Positions 3,740 through 19,979 of a stretch of DNA of 31,249 bases are shown here, piece by piece. The position numbers and the translations under genes were made by a program. The stretch comes from a virus. Below the pieces are notes generated by a model, which saw nothing but the letters and a program-made list of their open reading frames with translations, made no database searches and was not told where the DNA came from. Location of the stretch: positions 1 through 31,249 of IMG/VR virus record IMGVR_UViG_3300044591_000854; one strand, written 5' to 3'. Each line of letters opens with the position of its first letter. The first letter of the stretch is position 1.

Positions 3740-3952
3740 ATGATGACAAACAAATATACTAAAATGATTCAAATAGAAATACATAAAAAAAACGGCGAAT
3801 CTTACCGCGCCGCCGTCCCCTCTCTGAATGCAGTCGTGAATCTTGCCGAAATTACCACAATTTCGAAAATTTTTATTTTTGCCATAACTCCCCGCGAATT
3901 CAACTACTTACGCTCGCTTGAACTACCTAGCAAAGTAATTATTACTAGATAA
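3740..3952 (+). CDS. Hypothetical small protein
   Basis: This encodes 70 residues, starting at a double ATG (3740/3743) without a strong ribosome binding site. The sequence suggests a short beta/alpha domain ('IQIEIHKKNGESYRAAV' strand, turn, strand), with no recognised motif. It lies alone between the terminator at 3667-3695 and the promoter-like region near 3967. It may be an early-expressed gene; real coding status is likely but not certain. Confidence 0.45.
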   Translation: MMTNKYTKMIQIEIHKKNGESYRAAVPSLNAVVNLAEITTISKIFIFAITPREFNYLRSLELPSKVIITR

Positions 3953-3966
3953 ATAAAAAAAAAGAC

Positions 3967-3995
3967 TTGACATGTATTGATATGTTTCGTAAGTT
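3967..3995 (+). promoter_or_regulatory. Possible early promoter
   Basis: A perfect TTGACA (3967-3972) follows an A-rich tract and is separated by 17 bases from TAAGTT (3990-3995), a weak -10 match. It lies about 40 bases upstream of the first of a run of small genes with good ribosome binding sites. The poor -10 keeps confidence low. Confidence 0.3.
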
Positions 3996-4036
3996 CGCAC
4001 CGTAATAAACAACGCACTAACAAAGGAGTGAACGCG

Positions 4037-4171
4037 ATGAAACTCAAACCACACAAAATCTACAACACTTTTGCCGAGGCAATGGCTGCAATCTTCTTGC
4101 ATCCACCAGGCGAAGCTCAAGTAATGCCATACAACGGCAAATGGGTAATCCTCAAGCGAGGTGCAAAATGA
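4037..4171 (+). CDS. Hypothetical 44-residue protein
   Basis: The ATG at 4037 has a strong ribosome binding site (AAAGGAG, 4022-4028), so I reject the upstream in-frame start at 3977. The product begins MKLKPHKIY and contains an amphipathic helix ('FAEAMAAIFL') followed by a short beta hairpin ('VMPYNGKWVILKR'). The stop overlaps the next ATG (ATGA). Function unknown; it heads a chain of translationally coupled microgenes. Confidence 0.5.
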   Translation: MKLKPHKIYNTFAEAMAAIFLHPPGEAQVMPYNGKWVILKRGAK

Positions 4172-4278
4172 AGCCCGATCTTAAGCGCGCGATATTCGAG
4201 ATGGCCGTCGGACTCTTCGGCGGCCTATTCCTAAGCTACTTAATTGTTTATGCAATCATTAATGGACTAGTACGATGA
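4168..4278 (+). CDS. Single-span membrane microprotein
   Basis: This encodes 36 residues, below usual gene-calling limits. It has ATGA overlaps at both ends (with 4037-4171 and with the gene at 4275), which supports real translation. A charged N-terminus (MKPDLKRA) is followed by one hydrophobic helix at about residues 12-33. Function unknown; small early phage membrane proteins can affect the host envelope or block superinfection, but nothing here shows that. Confidence 0.5.
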   Translation: MKPDLKRAIFEMAVGLFGGLFLSYLIVYAIINGLVR

Positions 4279-4373
4279 AACTCAAACCTTGGCATATGGT
4301 GGTAATTTTTGCACTCTGCTTTATCGCTATTCGAACCTACGACTTCTGGCTATATGGACAGGAGATAAAATGA
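4275..4373 (+). CDS. Single-span membrane microprotein
   Basis: This encodes 32 residues, starting in an ATGA overlap with the previous microgene and ending in an ATGA overlap with the HTH gene at 4370. It begins MKLKP, like the 44-residue protein at 4037, followed by a hydrophobic stretch at about residues 8-19 and an aromatic/charged tail. The tight coupling is the main evidence that it is translated. Function unknown. Confidence 0.45.
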   Translation: MKLKPWHMVVIFALCFIAIRTYDFWLYGQEIK

Positions 4374-4582
4374 GTGACTGGCTGACTATTCGCGAGGCCG
4401 CTCAACTATTCCAAGTATCAAGGCGGCTCTTGCACTATATGGCCGTCGGACGGCCTGCAAGTAAAGTCCGAAACGAAAAAGAGGCGGTTCTAAGACAAGT
4501 AAAGCAAGTGCCTTATGGCGAAAAGACAATGTATCTATTAAACTATAACGAATTAAAAAGAATACTAGGAGCAAAGAGATGA
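4370..4582 (+). CDS. Small helix-turn-helix DNA-binding protein (excisionase/MerR-like fold)
   Basis: A longer frame begins at 4289, but the ATG at 4370 follows AGGAGATAAA and overlaps the previous stop, so I use it (70 residues). The N-terminus 'WLTIREAAQLFQVSRRLLHYM' is the winged-helix DNA-binding pattern of excisionase/MerR-family proteins: a 'T..EAA..F.VS...' helix-turn-helix followed by a wing ('VPYGEKTMYLLNYNELKRIL'). With no integrase in view, a role in transcription or DNA transactions is more likely than excision. It is coupled to the next gene by ATGA. Confidence 0.65.
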   Translation: MSDWLTIREAAQLFQVSRRLLHYMAVGRPASKVRNEKEAVLRQVKQVPYGEKTMYLLNYNELKRILGAKR

Positions 4583-4818
4583 AAACAATGGCAAAACACA
4601 CTATGCCCGCCGCGCATAGAGCAACTGAAGAACTTCGCGAGGCACTAAGCCCGCAAGACTTCGCAAAAGTTGAGGATATTCTACGCTATGTGAGACAAAC
4701 AGAAAATATGCAATTTCAACTTGCATTTAGATACGGACAAGAAGGCAAAACATTCGATGAGTTTATGGCAAGTTTTACTAAACAAGTGCCCTATGTGAAC
4801 TGGGGCAATAAAATCTAA
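4579..4818 (+). CDS. Hypothetical helical protein
   Basis: This encodes 79 residues, starting at ATG 4579 in overlap with the previous stop; a second in-frame Met lies at residue 4. The sequence is largely helical ('EELREALSPQDFAKVEDILRYVRQTE'). No domain recognised. It belongs to the same coupled early operon. Confidence 0.5.
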   Translation: MKTMAKHTMPAAHRATEELREALSPQDFAKVEDILRYVRQTENMQFQLAFRYGQEGKTFDEFMASFTKQVPYVNWGNKI

Positions 4819-7483: not shown

Positions 7484-8087
7484 TGCAACCCAGCTCGAAT
7501 CTTACCGCCGCTTTCTTGATGGTCTGATTACAGTCGAGCAGTTCGAGCGCTCACTTTTGAGACTCGATCCACCTAATGCAATGATGCAAAGAGGCATCGC
7601 ATTCCACGAGATGATGCAAACCGACAGCCCGCAAGAGTTCGAAGGACAATTTAGCGATAACTGCATTATCAATGCCCGTAATTGCATGGATTACCGCTCG
7701 CGAGTATTCGAGTACAAAGTTCGCAAAGTATTCCGCACCCAATTCGGAGATATATCAGTAACAGGCGTCGCAGACCAGCTTATCGGGCTTGATGTTGTAG
7801 AAATCAAAACTAAGTATAGTGCAATCAGTTTTGATGACTATTACAACTCAATACAATGGCGTGTATATTGCGAGCTATTCAACGCGCCCTTTGTCCATTA
7901 CAAGATATTCGAGTTCGACTCACCTGAAGCGATGGACTTCAAAAACAAAGCGGAATACTCATTCCCGAGACCCGCGTACAATTACGAATATGTTCGTAAT
8001 ATGATACACTACTTGCATGAGTATATCTTAGTTCGAGGACTTGATAAAGAGGATGTTTTAAATACAAAAAAATGGAGCGTTGTATGA
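7470..8087 (+). CDS. PD-(D/E)XK nuclease, RecB/Cas4-like
   Basis: This encodes 205 residues. It shows the core of the RecB-like nuclease family in order: an N-terminal 'ISATQLESYRRFLDG' helix, 'RGIAFHEMMQ' (residues 41-50) with the helical His, 'GVADQL' with Asp102, 'VVEIKTK' with Glu111 and Lys113, and a 'SIQWRVY' helix with Gln129 and Tyr133. These are the metal-binding and catalytic positions. Such enzymes act as phage exonucleases that generate 3' single strands for annealing proteins; the Sak4-like ATPase upstream fits that pairing. There is no four-cysteine cluster as in true Cas4. Ribosome binding site is GGAGG at 7460-7464. Confidence 0.8.
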   Translation: MIKISATQLESYRRFLDGLITVEQFERSLLRLDPPNAMMQRGIAFHEMMQTDSPQEFEGQFSDNCIINARNCMDYRSRVFEYKVRKVFRTQFGDISVTGVADQLIGLDVVEIKTKYSAISFDDYYNSIQWRVYCELFNAPFVHYKIFEFDSPEAMDFKNKAEYSFPRPAYNYEYVRNMIHYLHEYILVRGLDKEDVLNTKKWSVV

Positions 8088-8509
8088 AAAAGATAGCGCC
8101 GTTCTTTGCAGAATATACAGTTTGGGAAGATTACATAAATGGTATGTACAATCCATGTAATCAAAACGAAGAAGAACAGCTGATAACTTATGCTGTAGAA
8201 ATTTTAAGCAACAAGTCGTTGTTTAAAAGAACCTGCTTGTCATTACTTATAGATTGGCCAATATCTTCAAAGGTCAACTTAACTAATCAATCATGCAATA
8301 GGAGAGCATGGCTTGGACAAGCTGCTTGTAGCTATAAATTTAAAGTACCTGAAATATGCACAAGGATAGCTTGGTCAAGGTTGACAGATATTCAAAGATA
8401 CGAAGCGAACAAAGTTGCCGATACAATAATTAATTATTTTGAGAATACTTATGCAAAAGAAAGTAAGAGATTACATCAAAAAATGGACAACTACAGTCTA
8501 TTTGAATGA
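8084..8509 (+). CDS. Unknown protein, first gene of the AT-rich sulfur/cupin island
   Basis: ATG 8084 overlaps the nuclease stop (ATGA) and lies 7 nt behind GGAG, so I prefer it to the in-frame ATG at 8072 (141 residues). The C-terminal half, about residues 73-125, holds 'CNRRAWLGQAACSYKFKVPE' followed by 'TRIAWSRLTDIQRYEANKVAD', which I think recurs in small phage proteins encoded beside IbrA-like genes, though I cannot name a domain. Cys and aromatic residues are frequent. Codons are AT-rich with mostly AGA/AGG arginine, unlike the nuclease gene in front. The 3' end overlaps the next gene by 59 nt. Confidence 0.6.
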   Translation: MKKIAPFFAEYTVWEDYINGMYNPCNQNEEEQLITYAVEILSNKSLFKRTCLSLLIDWPISSKVNLTNQSCNRRAWLGQAACSYKFKVPEICTRIAWSRLTDIQRYEANKVADTIINYFENTYAKESKRLHQKMDNYSLFE

Positions 8510-8714
8510 TTTACCAGATGAAGCACCTCGAAGGCTTGAAGAGCTTAACAAAGTACCTAGTTATCGACAAATTTGTATCGCTATACTAAAAAATGACAAA
8601 CATCTTAAAACCTTAGGCCAAAGTCAACCTATTAGCAAAGTGTATAGTCAATTAAAAAGAAAAGAGCTTGAAGAAAGAGGCGTAATACCTAAACAATGGA
8701 GACTTGAGTTATGA
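8451..8714 (+). CDS. Stand-alone DUF3440 C-terminal-like protein
   Basis: This encodes 87 residues; ATG 8451 is chosen over an in-frame ATG at 8439, though neither has a strong ribosome binding site. Residues 36-66, 'PSYRQICIAILKNDKHLKTLG' onward, match the C-terminal tail of the next gene's product ('TSWKRFAITILKNDHTCKYLG', from residue 385), so this is a free copy of that segment. DUF3440 is the C-terminal region of IbrA-type PAPS-reductase-like proteins. The stop overlaps the start of the IbrA-like gene (ATGA), suggesting the two act together, perhaps as subunits. Biochemical role unknown. Confidence 0.65.
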   Translation: MQKKVRDYIKKWTTTVYLNDLPDEAPRRLEELNKVPSYRQICIAILKNDKHLKTLGQSQPISKVYSQLKRKELEERGVIPKQWRLEL

Positions 8715-9991
8715 GTAAGAATGTTTATGAAGCATCGATTGATAGAATTGACTTTATCTTTAAAAATTTTAAAAGAATTTATGTCAGTTTCTCTGGCGGA
8801 AAAGATTCTGGTGTTATGCTTAACCTAGTTCTGCAGTATATGAGAAATAACAATATAAAAGACAAAGTTGGTGTAATGATACTAGATAATGAAGCTAACT
8901 ATAATATGTCTTTAGAATTTATGCATTCTATTTTAGAAGCAAATCTTGACTTGCTTGATGTCTATTGGTGTTGTTTGCCTATAACATTGCCTTGTACCGT
9001 TTCTTCCTATGCGACGGAATGGCAGTGTTGGGGTGAAAGGGACAAAGCAAGATGGATAAGACCAATGCCAACCAATAGTTATGTAGTCAATATAGATAAC
9101 CATAAATTTGATTTCTTCAAAGAGGATATGAGTTATCAAGAATTTTGGGATAAGTTTGGAGACTGGTATGGACAAGGAGAAGAAACTGCTTGTTTAATTG
9201 GAATTAGAACGCATGAAAGCTTAAACCGTTGGAGAGCGATACAAAACGAAAACAAGATAATGAAACATGGTAAAAAGTGGACGAAGAAAAATACGAAACT
9301 TGTTTTTAATTGCTATCCTATTTATGACTGGAGAACTGAGGATGTTTGGATCGCAAATTGTAAGTTTGAATGGAATTACAATAAGCTGTATGACATATTT
9401 TGGAAAGCTGGACTTTCTATACACCAAATGAGAGTCGCATCACCTTTTATGAGTGAAAGTAAATCTAGCTTAAATCTGTATCGTGTCATAGATCCTCATG
9501 TGTGGGTTACTTTATGTGCAAGAGTCCAAGGTGCGAATTTTGTGGCAACTTATGGCAAACAGCTTAATTATCATTCATTTAAATTGCCTGAAGGTCATAC
9601 ATGGAAAAGCTTTGTCAAATTCCTACTAGACACTTTACCACCGGAAGTCTCAGAAAATTTTAAGATGCGCTTTGCTCAAAGCTTAAGATATTGGGCAAGA
9701 GTAGGGCGCGGATTAGATGACAAGGTTATAAAAGACCTCGAAAATAATGATGTTATTTTTAATCTAGGAAATAAAACTAGGCATGGTAAAAAAGTAAAAA
9801 CTTGTGTAAAAATGATACCACCTGATCATTTAGACTTTTTAAGATGCCACAATTCAGAAGTTACAAGTTGGAAAAGATTTGCAATAACAATTTTGAAAAA
9901 CGACCATACTTGTAAGTATCTTGGATTAGCCCCTACTGCAGAGCAAGCCAAAAGACAAAGACAAATTATGGAAAAATACAAAAATATCTAG
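8711..9991 (+). CDS. PAPS-reductase-like PP-loop protein, IbrA/DUF3440 type
   Basis: This encodes 426 residues. The PP-loop 'SFSGGKDSG' is at residues 26-34; an arginine motif 'GIRTHESLNRWRA' and 'YPIYDWRTEDVW' follow, both typical of the adenosine-phosphosulfate reductase superfamily, and residues ~385-426 form the DUF3440 tail ('ILKND...YLG'). The family uses ATP or a nucleotide to activate a substrate for sulfur transfer or reduction. IbrA of Escherichia coli is encoded beside the ParB-like IbrB, as here (with a cupin gene between), and DndC of DNA phosphorothioation systems belongs to the same superfamily. It lacks the usual C-terminal CGLH-type Cys of assimilatory CysH, so a sulfate-assimilation role is unlikely. 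Codons are AT-rich. Target of the reaction unknown. Confidence 0.85.
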   Translation: MSKNVYEASIDRIDFIFKNFKRIYVSFSGGKDSGVMLNLVLQYMRNNNIKDKVGVMILDNEANYNMSLEFMHSILEANLDLLDVYWCCLPITLPCTVSSYATEWQCWGERDKARWIRPMPTNSYVVNIDNHKFDFFKEDMSYQEFWDKFGDWYGQGEETACLIGIRTHESLNRWRAIQNENKIMKHGKKWTKKNTKLVFNCYPIYDWRTEDVWIANCKFEWNYNKLYDIFWKAGLSIHQMRVASPFMSESKSSLNLYRVIDPHVWVTLCARVQGANFVATYGKQLNYHSFKLPEGHTWKSFVKFLLDTLPPEVSENFKMRFAQSLRYWARVGRGLDDKVIKDLENNDVIFNLGNKTRHGKKVKTCVKMIPPDHLDFLRCHNSEVTSWKRFAITILKNDHTCKYLGLAPTAEQAKRQRQIMEKYKNI

Positions 9992-10000
9992 GAGCGTAAA

Positions 10001-10375
10001 ATGAAAATAGTTGAAGAATTCGAACTTATAGGTTCAGAAAGAGATGTAGATGGCATTGGGTTTAAATCCTTGCGTTATTTATTGGCTAGTGACAACATGG
10101 GTTTCTCATTGCACAAAACAATAATACCTAAAGGCGGCCCTTATTATTGGCATTATAAGAAACACTTTGAAGCTTGTTTTTGTGTTAGTGGTGAAGGTAT
10201 GTTGTATGACATGGTTAATAAAAGGTATTATTCTATAAAGCCTAATACAACTTATGTACTAGACAAAAATGATCCACATACTTTTGAAGCTTTAACTGAC
10301 GTAGTTTTGATATCTATATTTAATCCACCAGTAACAGGCCGCGAAATACATAAAGAAGACGGCAGTTACGAATAA
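10001..10375 (+). CDS. Ectoine-synthase-like cupin (EctC family)
   Basis: A 124-residue protein with start at ATG 10001 behind GGAG. The sequence follows EctC closely: 'HYKKHFEACFCVSGEG' (residues 51-66), 'KPNTTYVLDKNDPHTF' (80-95) and 'FNPPVTGREIHKEDGSY' (107-123). The three metal ligands known from EctC structures (Glu57, Tyr85, His93) are present at the same numbering. EctC closes N-gamma-acetyl-diaminobutyrate into ectoine. No ectA, ectB or ectD is in the window, and the N-terminal ~45 residues are less like EctC, so the true substrate may differ. It sits between the PAPS-reductase-like and ParB-like genes with matching AT-rich codon use, suggesting a shared pathway. Confidence 0.8.
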   Translation: MKIVEEFELIGSERDVDGIGFKSLRYLLASDNMGFSLHKTIIPKGGPYYWHYKKHFEACFCVSGEGMLYDMVNKRYYSIKPNTTYVLDKNDPHTFEALTDVVLISIFNPPVTGREIHKEDGSYE

Positions 10376-10393
10376 TAAAAAAAAGGAGTGTTT

Positions 10394-10909
10394 ATGAGCA
10401 ATTTTAAAAGCCCTGTATACAATGTGCTTAGAGTACATATCGACAAGGTTCAAGCAAACGATTACAATCCAAACAAAGTAGCACCACCAGAAATGGAACT
10501 TCTTGAAACTTCTATATGGGAAGACGGTTACACTCAACCAGTAGTGACTTATTATGATAGTGAGCTTGATAAGTATATTGTTGTCGATGGTTTCCATAGA
10601 TATACAATCCTTAAAACATCTAAAAGAGTATATGAAAGAGAAGAAGGTCATTTGCCAGTAGTGGTAATTGACAAGCACATATCTGATAGAATGGCTTCGA
10701 CAATTAGACATAATCGTGCAAGAGGATCGCATAATATTGACTTAATGTCAAATATAGTTTCTGAGTTGGTAGAAATGGGAAAAGGCGATGCATGGATATG
10801 TAAGCATGTAGGTATGAGCAAAGATGAACTTTTGAGATTGAAGCAGATTACAGGCTTAGCTTCATTATTTGCCAATACATCGTTTTCTATGTCTGAAGAA
10901 GGAGACTGA
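10394..10909 (+). CDS. ParB/sulfiredoxin-fold protein, IbrB type
   Basis: ATG 10394 sits 6 nt behind AAAGGAG, so the upstream GTG at 10388 is rejected; 171 residues. The N-terminal domain is ParB/Srx-like: 'DYNPNKVAPPEMELLETSI', 'QPVVTYYD', then 'VVDGFHRY' (residues 63-70), the counterpart of the GCHR/GxHR nucleotide-binding signature, and 'RHNRARGSHN' (105-114). A helix-turn-helix-like region follows at ~119-155 ('WICKHVGMSKDELLRLKQ'). This is the arrangement of IbrB, the partner of IbrA. The Srx fold binds and hydrolyses nucleotides; ParB relatives bind DNA and CTP. It probably gives DNA binding to this island's system. Confidence 0.8.
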   Translation: MSNFKSPVYNVLRVHIDKVQANDYNPNKVAPPEMELLETSIWEDGYTQPVVTYYDSELDKYIVVDGFHRYTILKTSKRVYEREEGHLPVVVIDKHISDRMASTIRHNRARGSHNIDLMSNIVSELVEMGKGDAWICKHVGMSKDELLRLKQITGLASLFANTSFSMSEEGD

Positions 10910-14687: not shown

Positions 14688-16109
14688 ATGACAACACTAA
14701 GAAAATACCAAGCCGATGCAATCGAGAACCTACGCAAAGCTTTTGCCGATGGACACCGCGCCGTAATTCTTTGCGCTCCGACTGGAGCTGGTAAGACAAT
14801 AATGTTCTCTGCTATTGCACAAAGCGCATTGCAGAAAGGCAAAAGAGTTATGATAGTGACCGACCGAGGCGAGCTGCTATGGCAAGCAGGCGGGGCGCTT
14901 AATAACCTTGCTATCGTTCCCGAACTCATTACCGCTGATACTACCCGGGTAAACTCAAGCCAGCGAATCTTTGTGGCTATGATCGAGACGATATACCGCC
15001 GGGCTGAACAGCGGATCTACAGCGAACTACTTCAGAGCGTTGACTTATTCATATTTGATGAGTGCCACAAGCGTACATTCGACAAGCTCTTCCCTCTTCT
15101 TCCCTCTCATGCGAGAGTGCTTGGAGCGACGGCTACGCCATACCGAGAGGGGAAGGGAACGCCTTTGACTGACTTGTATACTCACATGGTCGAGGCTTCG
15201 ACTATTCCGAGTCTTATCTCTGATGGCTACTTAGCCAAGCCTTCATACTATTCCGTGCCTATCGATCTAAGCGGCGTAAAAACCAAGGGTAATGACTTTG
15301 ATGCTGATTCATTAGGAGCTGAATACTCAAGAATGCAGATATTCAAGGGCGCGGTGCAAAACTACCAGAGGTGGACACCAGGGACAAAGGCCATAGCTTT
15401 TGCGCCGAATTTAAAGAGCGCGGCCGAACTCTATGCAGAATTTGAGAAGGCGGGGCACCCTGTAATATCATTAGACGGATCTGCGGGGCTCGTAGAGAGG
15501 CGAAACGCTCTCAAGTGGTATAAAGAGACCCCCGCCGCGGTTTTAATCAATGTAGGGCTTTTTACCACTGGTTTTGACGAGCCTTCGATCGAGACGGTCA
15601 TTCTATACCGTGCTACGAAGAGTTTACCGTTGTTTCTTCAGATGGTCGGACGCGGTTCGAGGACTTGCGAGGGTAAGGACTCATTTACGGTCTTGGACTT
15701 CGGTAATAACCTTTACCGCTTTGGGATGTGGGACGATTCGAGAGATTGGACTAAGCCGCCGAAGAAGAAGCGGGATGGATTAGCAGTTTACAAGAATTGC
15801 ATTCACTGCGACGCGTTCCTATATGCCAGTGCAAGAGTTTGCTCGGAGTGTGGAAAACTTATCCCGAAAACAGAACGCGAAGTTCTCGAAGAGTTAGTTA
15901 TATTGACAAAGCATGAAGCTCGCGAGATGGCTAAGCTCGGAGGTTTGCCGGATTGGATCGCCTTGACCAAGGCGGGTAAATTACATCCTTTGTATGTTCT
16001 GCAAAGTTTGTGTAAGTTGCGAACTGAAGCCGAGGCCTACCGAGATGCGATGGGATATGCAAAAGGCTGGCTATTCATACATAAAGACAAGACAGGACAC
16101 TTGCGATGA
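14688..16109 (+). CDS. SF2 DEAD-type helicase with C-terminal zinc ribbon
   Basis: This encodes 473 residues. Motif I PTGAGKT is at 31-37, motif II DECH at 124-127, motif III TATP at 148-151, and a helicase C-terminal domain follows with 'TGFDEPSIETVILYR' and 'QMVGRGSRT'. Cys371, Cys374, Cys385 and Cys388 form a CxxC...CxxC zinc ribbon near the C-terminus. The enzyme is an ATP-driven helicase/translocase of the type common in phage replication clusters. The ATG lies within the TGACAAC array and has no visible ribosome binding site, yet the N-terminus fits the family, so the start is sound. ATGA overlap with the methyltransferase. Confidence 0.85.
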   Translation: MTTLRKYQADAIENLRKAFADGHRAVILCAPTGAGKTIMFSAIAQSALQKGKRVMIVTDRGELLWQAGGALNNLAIVPELITADTTRVNSSQRIFVAMIETIYRRAEQRIYSELLQSVDLFIFDECHKRTFDKLFPLLPSHARVLGATATPYREGKGTPLTDLYTHMVEASTIPSLISDGYLAKPSYYSVPIDLSGVKTKGNDFDADSLGAEYSRMQIFKGAVQNYQRWTPGTKAIAFAPNLKSAAELYAEFEKAGHPVISLDGSAGLVERRNALKWYKETPAAVLINVGLFTTGFDEPSIETVILYRATKSLPLFLQMVGRGSRTCEGKDSFTVLDFGNNLYRFGMWDDSRDWTKPPKKKRDGLAVYKNCIHCDAFLYASARVCSECGKLIPKTEREVLEELVILTKHEAREMAKLGGLPDWIALTKAGKLHPLYVLQSLCKLRTEAEAYRDAMGYAKGWLFIHKDKTGHLR

Positions 16110-17077
16110 GGCATGGCAGTTTATTTAGTGGTATTGGAGGCTTTGAGCTTGCAGCCGAGTGGATGGGATGGGAAAATACATTCCATTGTGAATTTAATGA
16201 GTTTGGATCAAAAGTATTAAGCCATTATTGGCCGGAGTCGAAGCACTATGGAGATATTACCAAATCAGATTTCTCTGAGTTTAGAGATAGAATCGACATC
16301 CTCACTGGAGGATTCCCTTGTCAGCCGTACAGCGCAGCGGGCAAAAGAAAAGGGAAAGACGATGCCCGTCACCTTTGGCCCGAAATGCTTCGAGTTATTC
16401 GAGAAGTCAAACCGCGCTACATTGTGGGGGAGAATGTTTATGGACTCGTTACTTGGAACGGCGGACTTGTTTTCGACGAGGTGTGCACTGACTTGGAAGC
16501 TGAAGGTTACGCCGTATGGCCGATTGTTATTCCAGCTGCAGCCGTCGGCGCGCCGCACCGAAGAGATAGGGTGTGGTTTGTTGCCTACTCCAAGAACGGC
16601 AGACATAGAGGGCGGGTGTGTGAACAATGTACAAATAGAGAACGGGAGTTACTTCAGAACGAATGCAAATGGAGTGAGGTGGGGTGTAAAGTTAAGGGAT
16701 GTTGTAGAGTCGGGCTTGCTACCGACTCCGACTTGTCAAGATGCGAAGGGGAAAGAGAACAGTCCGAGTCAGATAGGGAAAACAGAGCTATCAGTAATGG
16801 CAGGAAGCGGCTTGCTACCGACTCCGAGAGCGTTTTGCTACAAAGACAGTGCAGTGGACAGAGGCAAGGGAAATTTAGGAGAGGTAACTGGGACGGGTTC
16901 CCGACTGAGTCCCCGGTTTGTAGCGGAGATGATGGGATTCCCTCCGAATTGGACGGAATTACCTTTTCTAAATGGCGAAACGAAAGCATAAAGGCATATG
17001 GAAATGCAATTGTCCCTCAAGTTGCTTATCAAATTTTTAAGGCAATAGAAGACCATGACTACCGAGCAATGGCTTAA
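16106..17077 (+). CDS. DNA (cytosine-5) methyltransferase
   Basis: This encodes 323 residues. The C5 methyltransferase motifs are in order: motif I 'SLFSGIGGFELA' (5-16), motif IV 'GGFPCQPYS' with catalytic Cys72, motif VI 'GENV' (108-111), motif VIII 'HRRDRVWFVAYS' (151-162), and motif IX/X 'YGNAIVPQVAYQIFKAI' near the C-terminus. It transfers methyl from S-adenosylmethionine to cytosine, probably to protect phage DNA from restriction; no cognate endonuclease gene is adjacent. The region between motifs VIII and IX, normally the target-recognition part, is Ser/Arg/Glu-rich and low in hydrophobics, and overlaps a second long ORF (16248-16991) in the +1 frame. Confidence 0.88.
   Translation: MRHGSLFSGIGGFELAAEWMGWENTFHCEFNEFGSKVLSHYWPESKHYGDITKSDFSEFRDRIDILTGGFPCQPYSAAGKRKGKDDARHLWPEMLRVIREVKPRYIVGENVYGLVTWNGGLVFDEVCTDLEAEGYAVWPIVIPAAAVGAPHRRDRVWFVAYSKNGRHRGRVCEQCTNRERELLQNECKWSEVGCKVKGCCRVGLATDSDLSRCEGEREQSESDRENRAISNGRKRLATDSESVLLQRQCSGQRQGKFRRGNWDGFPTESPVCSGDDGIPSELDGITFSKWRNESIKAYGNAIVPQVAYQIFKAIEDHDYRAMA
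16248..16991 (+). CDS. Overprinted protein nested in the methyltransferase gene
   Basis: A 247-residue ORF lies entirely inside the methyltransferase gene in the +1 frame. It is not noise: it has a repeated 'GLLPTP' motif (three copies), a 'FELFEKSNRATLWGRMF' segment, 'CALTWKLKVTPYGRLLFQL', and a closing 'EMMGFPPNWTELPF', all of which I recall as conserved in proteins encoded with phage C5 methyltransferases. ATG 16248 has GGAG at 16234-16237; an alternative start is 16362. The Ser/Arg/Glu-rich stretch of the host gene fits constraint from this frame. The function is unknown; a role in methylation specificity is only a guess. Confidence 0.65.
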   Translation: MEILPNQISLSLEIESTSSLEDSLVSRTAQRAKEKGKTMPVTFGPKCFELFEKSNRATLWGRMFMDSLLGTADLFSTRCALTWKLKVTPYGRLLFQLQPSARRTEEIGCGLLPTPRTADIEGGCVNNVQIENGSYFRTNANGVRWGVKLRDVVESGLLPTPTCQDAKGKENSPSQIGKTELSVMAGSGLLPTPRAFCYKDSAVDRGKGNLGEVTGTGSRLSPRFVAEMMGFPPNWTELPFLNGETKA

Positions 17078-17801: not shown

Positions 17802-18386
17802 ATGAATCATTACTACCAAAACATTCACGGCTGGTTTGACTACGAAGAGATAATCAAGCTAGCAATTGACAAAGCCGAAGACGGCGCAAAGTTCGTAGAG
17901 ATCGGAGCTTGGAAAGGCAAGAGCGCCGCATATGCAGGCGTTGAGATCATGAATAGTGGAAAGGCAATCACTTACTATGCAGTTGATCACTTCTTAGGCT
18001 CTGAAGAGCATCGCAATCCCGTGAGTGACTTTTACGACTTTAAATGCCAAAGTGGCGAATTACGAACGGAATATCATGCAAACATCGAGCCTGTTAGCAA
18101 GGTAATTAGAACTTACGACATGACAAGCGCGCAAGCGTCTAAGAACTTCAAGAAGCGAAGCGTTGACTTTATCTTCATTGACGGCTCGCATGACTACGAC
18201 TCTGTTTGTGTTGATATTGAGATATGGCTACCAAAGCTCAAGCCCGGCGGAATGATTGGCGGTCACGATTATACGACGCATGAAACAGTAAAGAATGCAG
18301 TAGATACATATTTTACGGACTTGCAAATAGTCGGCAAGTCATGGTTATACATTTCTAGGAGTGAAGAGAATGGACAAGGTAAGTAA
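17802..18386 (+). CDS. SAM-dependent class I methyltransferase (Methyltransf_24-like)
   Basis: This encodes 194 residues. The Rossmann motif is 'FVEIGAWKGKSAAYAGVE' (31-48), with acidic post-I residue in 'YYAVDHF' (58-64), and 'VDFIFIDGSHDYDSV' (121-135) and 'LKPGGMIGGHDY' (146-157) are typical of small O-methyltransferase-like enzymes that act on sugars or amino acids rather than DNA. The putative GT7 glycosyltransferase downstream could be a pathway partner, as such methylases often modify glycans. The last 16 residues overlap the following gene's start region, within the repeat at 18357. Confidence 0.75.
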   Translation: MNHYYQNIHGWFDYEEIIKLAIDKAEDGAKFVEIGAWKGKSAAYAGVEIMNSGKAITYYAVDHFLGSEEHRNPVSDFYDFKCQSGELRTEYHANIEPVSKVIRTYDMTSAQASKNFKKRSVDFIFIDGSHDYDSVCVDIEIWLPKLKPGGMIGGHDYTTHETVKNAVDTYFTDLQIVGKSWLYISRSEENGQGK

Positions 18387-19103: not shown

Positions 19104-19347
19104 CGATAGCTTTGATGAGATGCCTACTCTTGACTGGGAGGAACTCAAAGACAAAGACTTCAAGACAGAGATCATGAAAAACGGCGTGCCTTTCGAGGCG
19201 CGTCTGTTTCTCGCGGGTTCGGGATGGAAGCTGAAGTTAACTAACAAAGTAACAGGCCGTTATGCTTTGGAGCTTAGGTTCCGAAATATGAGTCTTAACG
19301 ATGCGATGGTAAAAGCGGAATTCTACATATTGGAGAACTTGGAATGA
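19087..19347 (+). CDS. Hypothetical acidic small protein
   Basis: This encodes 86 residues; ATG 19087 overlaps the preceding gene by 17 nt and has GAGG at 19078-19081. Acidic N-terminus ('DDSFDEMPTLDWEELKDKDF') then a beta-rich core ('WKLKLTNKVTGRYALELRF'). No family recognised. Coupled by ATGA to the glycosyltransferase. Confidence 0.5.
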   Translation: MLYHFDDSFDEMPTLDWEELKDKDFKTEIMKNGVPFEARLFLAGSGWKLKLTNKVTGRYALELRFRNMSLNDAMVKAEFYILENLE

Positions 19348-19979
19348 GACTTGAAGTAATTATTCCCTATCGCAATCGCGAGGCTCACATTCGTAAACAG
19401 ATACCTCACTTATTCAAGACGCTTGAGGCTCAAGGCTTGGAGTTTGGCATAACGATTGTAGAGCAAGAAGAGGGCAAGCTGTTTAATACCGGCATGATGA
19501 AGAACATCGGATTCCTAGAGTCTCAGCATGCTGATTACTTTTGCTTTCACGATGTGGATATGTACGCTCAAGACGCGGATTATTCACCAGTCACGATGCC
19601 GACTCACTTGGCAAGGTATGTAGAACAATACGACTGGGATATGCCATACCGTGCTTACTTTGGCGGTGTGACGTTATTCGACAAAGATAGTTACCGCAAA
19701 ATAAACGGGTACTCAAATGAGTACTGGGGCTGGGCTGTCGATGACGACGATCTATACTGGCGATGCGTATTAACAGGCTTTGCAAGGAGAGAGGGGCGGT
19801 TCTGGTCTGATGATCATGACCGCGAGAACTATGACAAATGGCAAGAGGAAAACTGGAGTAAGTTTCAGGCTTCGCTTTTGGATACTGAAGCCAAGAGCGG
19901 AATTACAACAACGGAATACACTGTACTAGAGTCTAAGCAATTTAATCCACAGCTTAGACGCATTTTAGTTTCTATTTAG
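19344..19979 (+). CDS. GT7-type (beta-1,4-galactosyltransferase-like) glycosyltransferase
   Basis: This encodes 211 residues. It has the GT-A fold signature of family GT7: 'VIIPYRNREAHI' (5-16), the metal-binding 'FHDVDM' with DVD at 70-72, 'YFGGVTLF' (105-112) and 'INGYSNEYWGWAVDDDDLYWR' from residue 120, very close to animal beta-1,4-galactosyltransferases ('YFGGVS...NGF.N.YWGWGGEDDD'). Here the glycine pair before the acidic run reads 'AV'. It transfers a hexose from a UDP-sugar. In a phage the acceptor could be a virion protein, modified DNA base or host surface glycan; none is shown by the sequence. Confidence 0.8.
   Translation: MRLEVIIPYRNREAHIRKQIPHLFKTLEAQGLEFGITIVEQEEGKLFNTGMMKNIGFLESQHADYFCFHDVDMYAQDADYSPVTMPTHLARYVEQYDWDMPYRAYFGGVTLFDKDSYRKINGYSNEYWGWAVDDDDLYWRCVLTGFARREGRFWSDDHDRENYDKWQEENWSKFQASLLDTEAKSGITTTEYTVLESKQFNPQLRRILVSI

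Follow-up and report, generated by a model that had tools for sequence, protein, structure and literature searches.

Ectoine synthase (EctC) converts an N-acyl diamine, by cyclodehydration, into a cyclic amidine, and the hydroxylase EctD acts on that product. Among EctC proteins encoded in ect gene clusters, Trp21 is present in 437 of 437; it contacts both substrate and product and is needed for activity (PMC6344544), and its replacement by alanine leaves the P. lautus enzyme with 9.7% activity (PMC6344544). Other EctC-like proteins are encoded in cells with no ectA or ectB nearby, and published work treats the role of these solitary, or orphan, proteins as an unsettled question (PMC5924519, PMC6344544).

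A second described system consists of IbrA, a DUF3440 protein with a PP-loop, and IbrB, a ParB/sulfiredoxin-fold (Srx) protein. The two are encoded side by side in phages of Streptococcus and Fusobacterium, and we found no paper in the open-licence literature that gives them a biochemical function. All three proteins meet in mycobacteriophage Gaia and Pseudoalteromonas phage XCL1123, where an ‘Ectoine synthase/ParB multidomain protein’ is annotated beside a PAPS reductase. In the same literature we found neither a described IbrA-EctC-IbrB system nor a function for the Gaia and XCL1123 protein. Here we compare these systems with a stretch of 31,249 bases (the window), an IMG/VR virus record that contains terminase, portal, protease, capsid, primase and helicase genes.

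The EctC-like gene and its cassette

The EctC-like gene occupies positions 10001-10375 on the plus strand and encodes a metal cupin of 124 amino acids (P0001), with an ATG start and an AGGAG a few bases upstream. Its product matches the Pfam family Ectoine_synth over its full length (residues 1-124, 5.8e-41) and the NCBIfam ectoine synthase model PRK13290 with 137.1 bits, above the cut-off of 128; there is also a weak match to the AraC-binding profile. Among solved structures, EctC of P. lautus and of S. alaskensis are nearest. We used 39 viral sequences to build an AlphaFold2 model (pLDDT 92.6), and it lies 1.0 Å from the S. alaskensis protein (5bxx). The metal ligands Glu57, Tyr85 and His93 are present, as is the C-terminal lid, the tail FNPPVTGREIHKEDGSY at residues 107-123. 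Sequence, profiles and superposition thus bear out the EctC core, ligand numbering and tail reported in the preliminary description, and the full-length match, the cupin fold and the three ligands place the protein in the EctC family. When the gene is compared with that of a relative (L005), we find 27 synonymous and 8 nonsynonymous differences, giving a dN/dS of 0.055 (two other pairs were set aside, L055/L071 as misaligned and L249/L258 as saturated). The gene is under purifying selection, and it is a real and actively maintained relative of ectoine synthase.

By tblastn, ectA, ectB and ectD were not found in the window (best E-values 0.63, 3.6 and 2.5, respectively), as had been reported. 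The neighbours are of another kind. Just upstream, at 8711-9991 (plus strand), lies an IbrA-like protein with a PP-loop (SGGKDSG) PAPS-reductase domain and a DUF3440 domain (DUF3440 3.3e-56, PAPS_reduct 1.3e-09; PHROG 2302). Downstream, at 10388-10909 (plus strand), lies an IbrB-like protein of the ParB/sulfiredoxin fold with a DGFHR motif, whose real start is probably the ATG at 10394, given its better spacing from GGAG; by profile it matches both ParB proteins and SbnI, an amino-acid kinase. The window thus has the adjoining pair that defines an IbrA/IbrB system. Two small companions on the same strand recur with the cassette: an all-helical protein at 8072-8509, for which a fold search of the PDB gave nothing below an E-value of 2.3, and, overlapping it, a stand-alone protein at 8439-8714 that resembles the C-terminal part of DUF3440 (3e-08). 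Although the IbrA-like protein weakly matches, by profile, the PAPS-reductase-like proteins DndC and BrxP of DNA phosphorothioation, it scores 24 bits on the DndC equivalog, where the cut-off is 290, and we identified no further Dnd genes in support of a Dnd assignment. A role in anti-phage defence was likewise rejected: PADLOC gave no meaningful match for EctC or IbrB, and a weak DndC match for IbrA.

This arrangement is conserved among relatives. In a first large set both IbrA and IbrB were present at 79 of 80 EctC loci, and the converse search, by IbrB alone, found EctC at 79 of 80 loci. A second search, started elsewhere in the family, brought the total to 139 distinct viral sequences, and both partners lie beside EctC in 133 of these. 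Five more lack IbrA on short contigs or at contig ends, and the last (contig L084/L232) has neither partner intact, with an inverted IbrA fragment at the contig end. EctC and IbrB form a single open frame in 20 of 82 cassettes, including Gaia gp104, where gp103 is the IbrA; in the window they are separate genes. Membership is constant while gene order varies: writing A, E and B for IbrA, EctC and IbrB, and o and t for homologues of the window frames at 8072-8509 and 8439-8714, we observe AEBot, otAEB, EBotA, BotAE and AEotB. Additional recurrent neighbours are few and lineage-specific, and no cassette contains ectA or ectB. The preliminary description had brought up solitary EctC-like proteins in connection with the gene, a term that misses its setting; the EctC-like gene is not solitary, but a regular member of a conserved IbrA/IbrB cassette. 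The sulfur-chemistry-like and ParB-like setting noted for this one window is likewise found across relatives.

IbrA/IbrB pairs also occur in distant phages that have no EctC. The window IbrA is about 63-82% identical to that of most cassette relatives and 26-41% identical to that of the EctC-less phages; in the Streptococcus and Fusobacterium phages IbrA is about 41% and IbrB about 69% identical to the window's. Since the resemblance to the window's proteins is far weaker for the IbrA of EctC-less phages than for their IbrB, the EctC cassette has its own IbrA lineage.

Several further genes were observed in passing. Inspection by eye found GIY-YIG homing-endonuclease-like frames inside three cassettes (L006 4510-5262, L044 2532-2852 and L270 5666-5983). 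A DGQHR-domain (DndB-like) protein lies between IbrA and EctC in L262 (4934-6001), and in L112 a 1-Cys peroxiredoxin (3868-4617) fills the usual EctC slot between IbrA and IbrB. Elsewhere in the window, a frame at 16106-17077 reads as a C5-cytosine DNA methylase whose Pfam match is limited to residues 1-167; wholly within it, in another frame, lies a candidate 247-residue product with repeated LLPTP motifs at 16248-16991, and either frame may be the one translated in the overlap. A Methyltransf_24 protein (17802-18386) and a galactosyltransferase-family (Glyco_transf_7) protein (19344-19979) are possible modification enzymes of this phage.

Pocket residues, phylogeny and EctD homologues

We compared active-site positions among 74 viral proteins, 33 ectB-linked EctC and 17 solitary cellular EctC. 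Ser23, Arg25, Thr40, Tyr52, Glu57, Tyr85, Glu115 and His117 are invariant across the 74 viral proteins, and His93 and Phe107 are each retained in 73. With EctC of the EctABC pathway the window protein shares fold, length, the three metal ligands, Ser23, Arg25, Thr40, Tyr52, Phe107 and the C-terminal lid. The differences lie at other positions. Trp21 is found in none of the 74 viral proteins and in all 33 ectB-linked ones; the window protein has Phe21, and one viral protein carries Trp at a neighbouring position. Cys59 replaces Val59 in 74 of 74 viral proteins and in no ectB-linked protein, and Trp50 is present in 73 of 74. Cys61, for its part, is also common among canonical EctC.

Because the original search pattern itself included positions 51 and 59, we counted again among loci retrieved by way of IbrB, a set that shares some contigs with the first. 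There, Trp21 was found in 0 of 61 proteins, Cys59 in 64 of 64 and Trp50 in 49 of 63, and the metal ligands were again near-invariant. By this recount the loss of Trp21 and the gain of Cys59 are robust features of the viral family, and Trp50 is common rather than universal. The viral subfamily keeps the metal ligands and most catalytic residues, with altered residues in the pocket. The loss of Trp21 is no proof of a changed substrate, since Phe can partly substitute for Trp. Two other replacements carry less information: Asn38 to His was rejected as a sign of changed function, His38 being present in 30 of 33 ectB-linked proteins, and Cys105 to Ser, which the window protein shows near the active site, is weak evidence, as Ser105 is common in orphan EctC and the C104S variant of P. 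lautus EctC is about 60% active (PMC6344544).

In a phylogenetic tree, which rests on few alignment columns and for which no root was inferred, all viral EctC gather on a single branch (support 100/100), separate from both the ectB-linked and the solitary cellular proteins. The window protein thus groups outside canonical EctC, and its substrate residues are not all intact. Solitary cellular EctC resemble it in lacking ectAB nearby; they fall on other branches, 14 of 17 keep Trp at or near position 21, and our searches found no IbrA/IbrB neighbours for them. A scan of genomes for viral-type EctC returned only three cellular contigs; as its patterns were strict, restriction of the subfamily to viruses is likely rather than proven. 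One GenBank record, MT835761.1 (‘Bacteriophage sp.’, L012), was rejected as a phage EctC and left out of the viral count because it is a fragment bearing an ectB-ectC pair of chromosomal type, probably bacterial. We also observed, in a gammaproteobacterial MAG, tandem EctC-like pairs within single frames of 311 and 424 amino acids (L221 and L222, G003), which lack Trp21.

Three viral relatives (L020, L050 and L229) have a homologue of ectD placed after one of ibrA and ectC and before the other. When all of IMG/VR was scanned for exact matches to HSDFETWH, the core of the EctD signature, those three contigs alone came up, although such a scan may overlook divergent members. The L020 protein matches crystallised EctD at 2.5e-76, and ectoine hydroxylase is the top NCBIfam match for all three, at 285, 173 and 189 bits, respectively, each below the cut-off of 336.5. 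All three proteins have Trp in place of the first Phe of the 17-residue signature FxWHSDFETWHxEDG[ML]P, and a Glu is also changed in L050 and L229. The accompanying EctC proteins carry the viral signature, and the three cassettes fall at separate places on the viral EctC tree, which corresponds to three separate changes. In L229 a frame at 3775-4308, between EctD and EctC, looks by eye like a class-I methyltransferase; it has no NCBIfam match. The preliminary description had suggested recruitment to a different substrate. The separate branch and altered pocket agree with this, whereas the EctD homologues, on which the argument mainly rests, suggest that the cassette product is still ectoine-like and not something unrelated.

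Function of the cassette

We consider it about an even bet (probability roughly 0.5) that the viral protein is an EctC-family cyclodehydratase acting as one step of an IbrA/IbrB-based phage pathway, and that it converts a substrate provided by IbrA/IbrB into a cyclic amidine of the ectoine type, a product that would be hydroxylated in some phages. The metal held by Glu57, Tyr85 and His93 would polarise the amide carbonyl of the substrate; a neighbouring amine would attack this carbonyl, and loss of water would leave a six-membered cyclic amidine, as in the formation of ectoine. The substrate may be a group resembling the ectoine precursor that IbrA and IbrB, with the two small proteins, make or present, rather than free N-gamma-acetyl-diaminobutyrate from the host, and in some phages the EctD homologue would then hydroxylate the product. 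We infer catalysis from the conservation of the metal ligands and acid/base residues. Supply of the substrate by IbrA/IbrB is the simplest account of cassettes that lack ectAB, nearly always contain IbrA and IbrB, and sometimes fuse IbrB to EctC. The ParB and SbnI matches of IbrB and the ATP-binding PP-loop motif of IbrA make it conceivable that an amino-acid-like group is activated. Against a pathway stand the record annotations, in which IbrA and IbrB coactivate the expression of prophage genes and which allow a regulatory role, and the confinement of EctD to three cassettes; the peroxiredoxin in the EctC slot of L112 speaks against a simple one.

The pathway has to be weighed against three other readings. 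The gene might encode a true ectoine synthase of the auxiliary metabolic kind, turning host N-gamma-acetyl-diaminobutyrate into more ectoine, or in some phages hydroxyectoine, during infection. The intact metal site and most substrate residues, the 1.0 Å superposition and the three EctD homologues would all fit, and a solitary P. syringae EctC does complement a Halomonas ectC mutant (PMC5924519). We nevertheless find this unlikely: ectA and ectB are missing from every viral cassette, Trp21 is lost, the link or fusion to IbrA/IbrB is constant and these have no known role in ectoine synthesis, and full-strength EctC occurs in none of 295 sampled Bacteroidota genomes besides one that holds a viral-type contig, a group that may not be that of the host. 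For the first three of these reasons an osmoprotectant auxiliary gene is disfavoured as the default label.

Cupin domains serve as controlling ligand-binding sensors in AraC-type regulators, and the viral cupin could similarly sense a ligand and control IbrB, its catalysis being vestigial. Such a sensor would fit the coactivator annotations, the weak AraC-binding match of the window protein and the fact that about one cassette in four fuses EctC with a ParB-fold protein, but all three metal-binding residues are almost invariant, as are those for acid/base chemistry, and EctD homologues keep it company, which makes this reading very doubtful. It also seems improbable to us that the protein carries out a different cupin reaction, with a substrate unrelated to the ectoine precursor, such as cyclisation of a glutamine-like amide or thiol chemistry through the viral Cys59 and Cys61. 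EctC does cyclise glutamine to ADPC in a side reaction (PMC5924519), Cys59 is universal in viral and absent from ectB-linked proteins, and the neighbours resemble sulfur enzymes; yet Cys61 is common in canonical EctC too, and the EctD linkage indicates an ectoine-like product.

A more specific form of the phage pathway is quite a long shot: the cassette would attach a cyclic amidine of the ectoine type to a macromolecule, phage DNA or an RNA being the most plausible, with IbrA and IbrB activating and loading an amino-acid-like group and EctC closing the ring, which in some phages would be decorated by EctD or by a methyltransferase.

Implications for viral ectC genes

The preliminary description had warned that an osmoprotectant label would be risky, and we agree, since the protein is tied to PAPS-reductase-like and ParB-like neighbours; the altered residues and the separate branch point the same way. 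A 2026 paper already labels a viral ectoine synthase a salt-stress gene (PMC13079714). For the viral EctC described above, annotation as host osmoprotection is not justified, and the protein more probably performs one step of some phage chemistry than helps the host to survive salt. It is important, therefore, that metagenome surveys not read a viral ectC as a salt-stress gene. The cassette also joins two questions, the role of solitary EctC and the role of IbrA/IbrB, and Gaia, growing on M. smegmatis, is a cultured phage in which both are testable.
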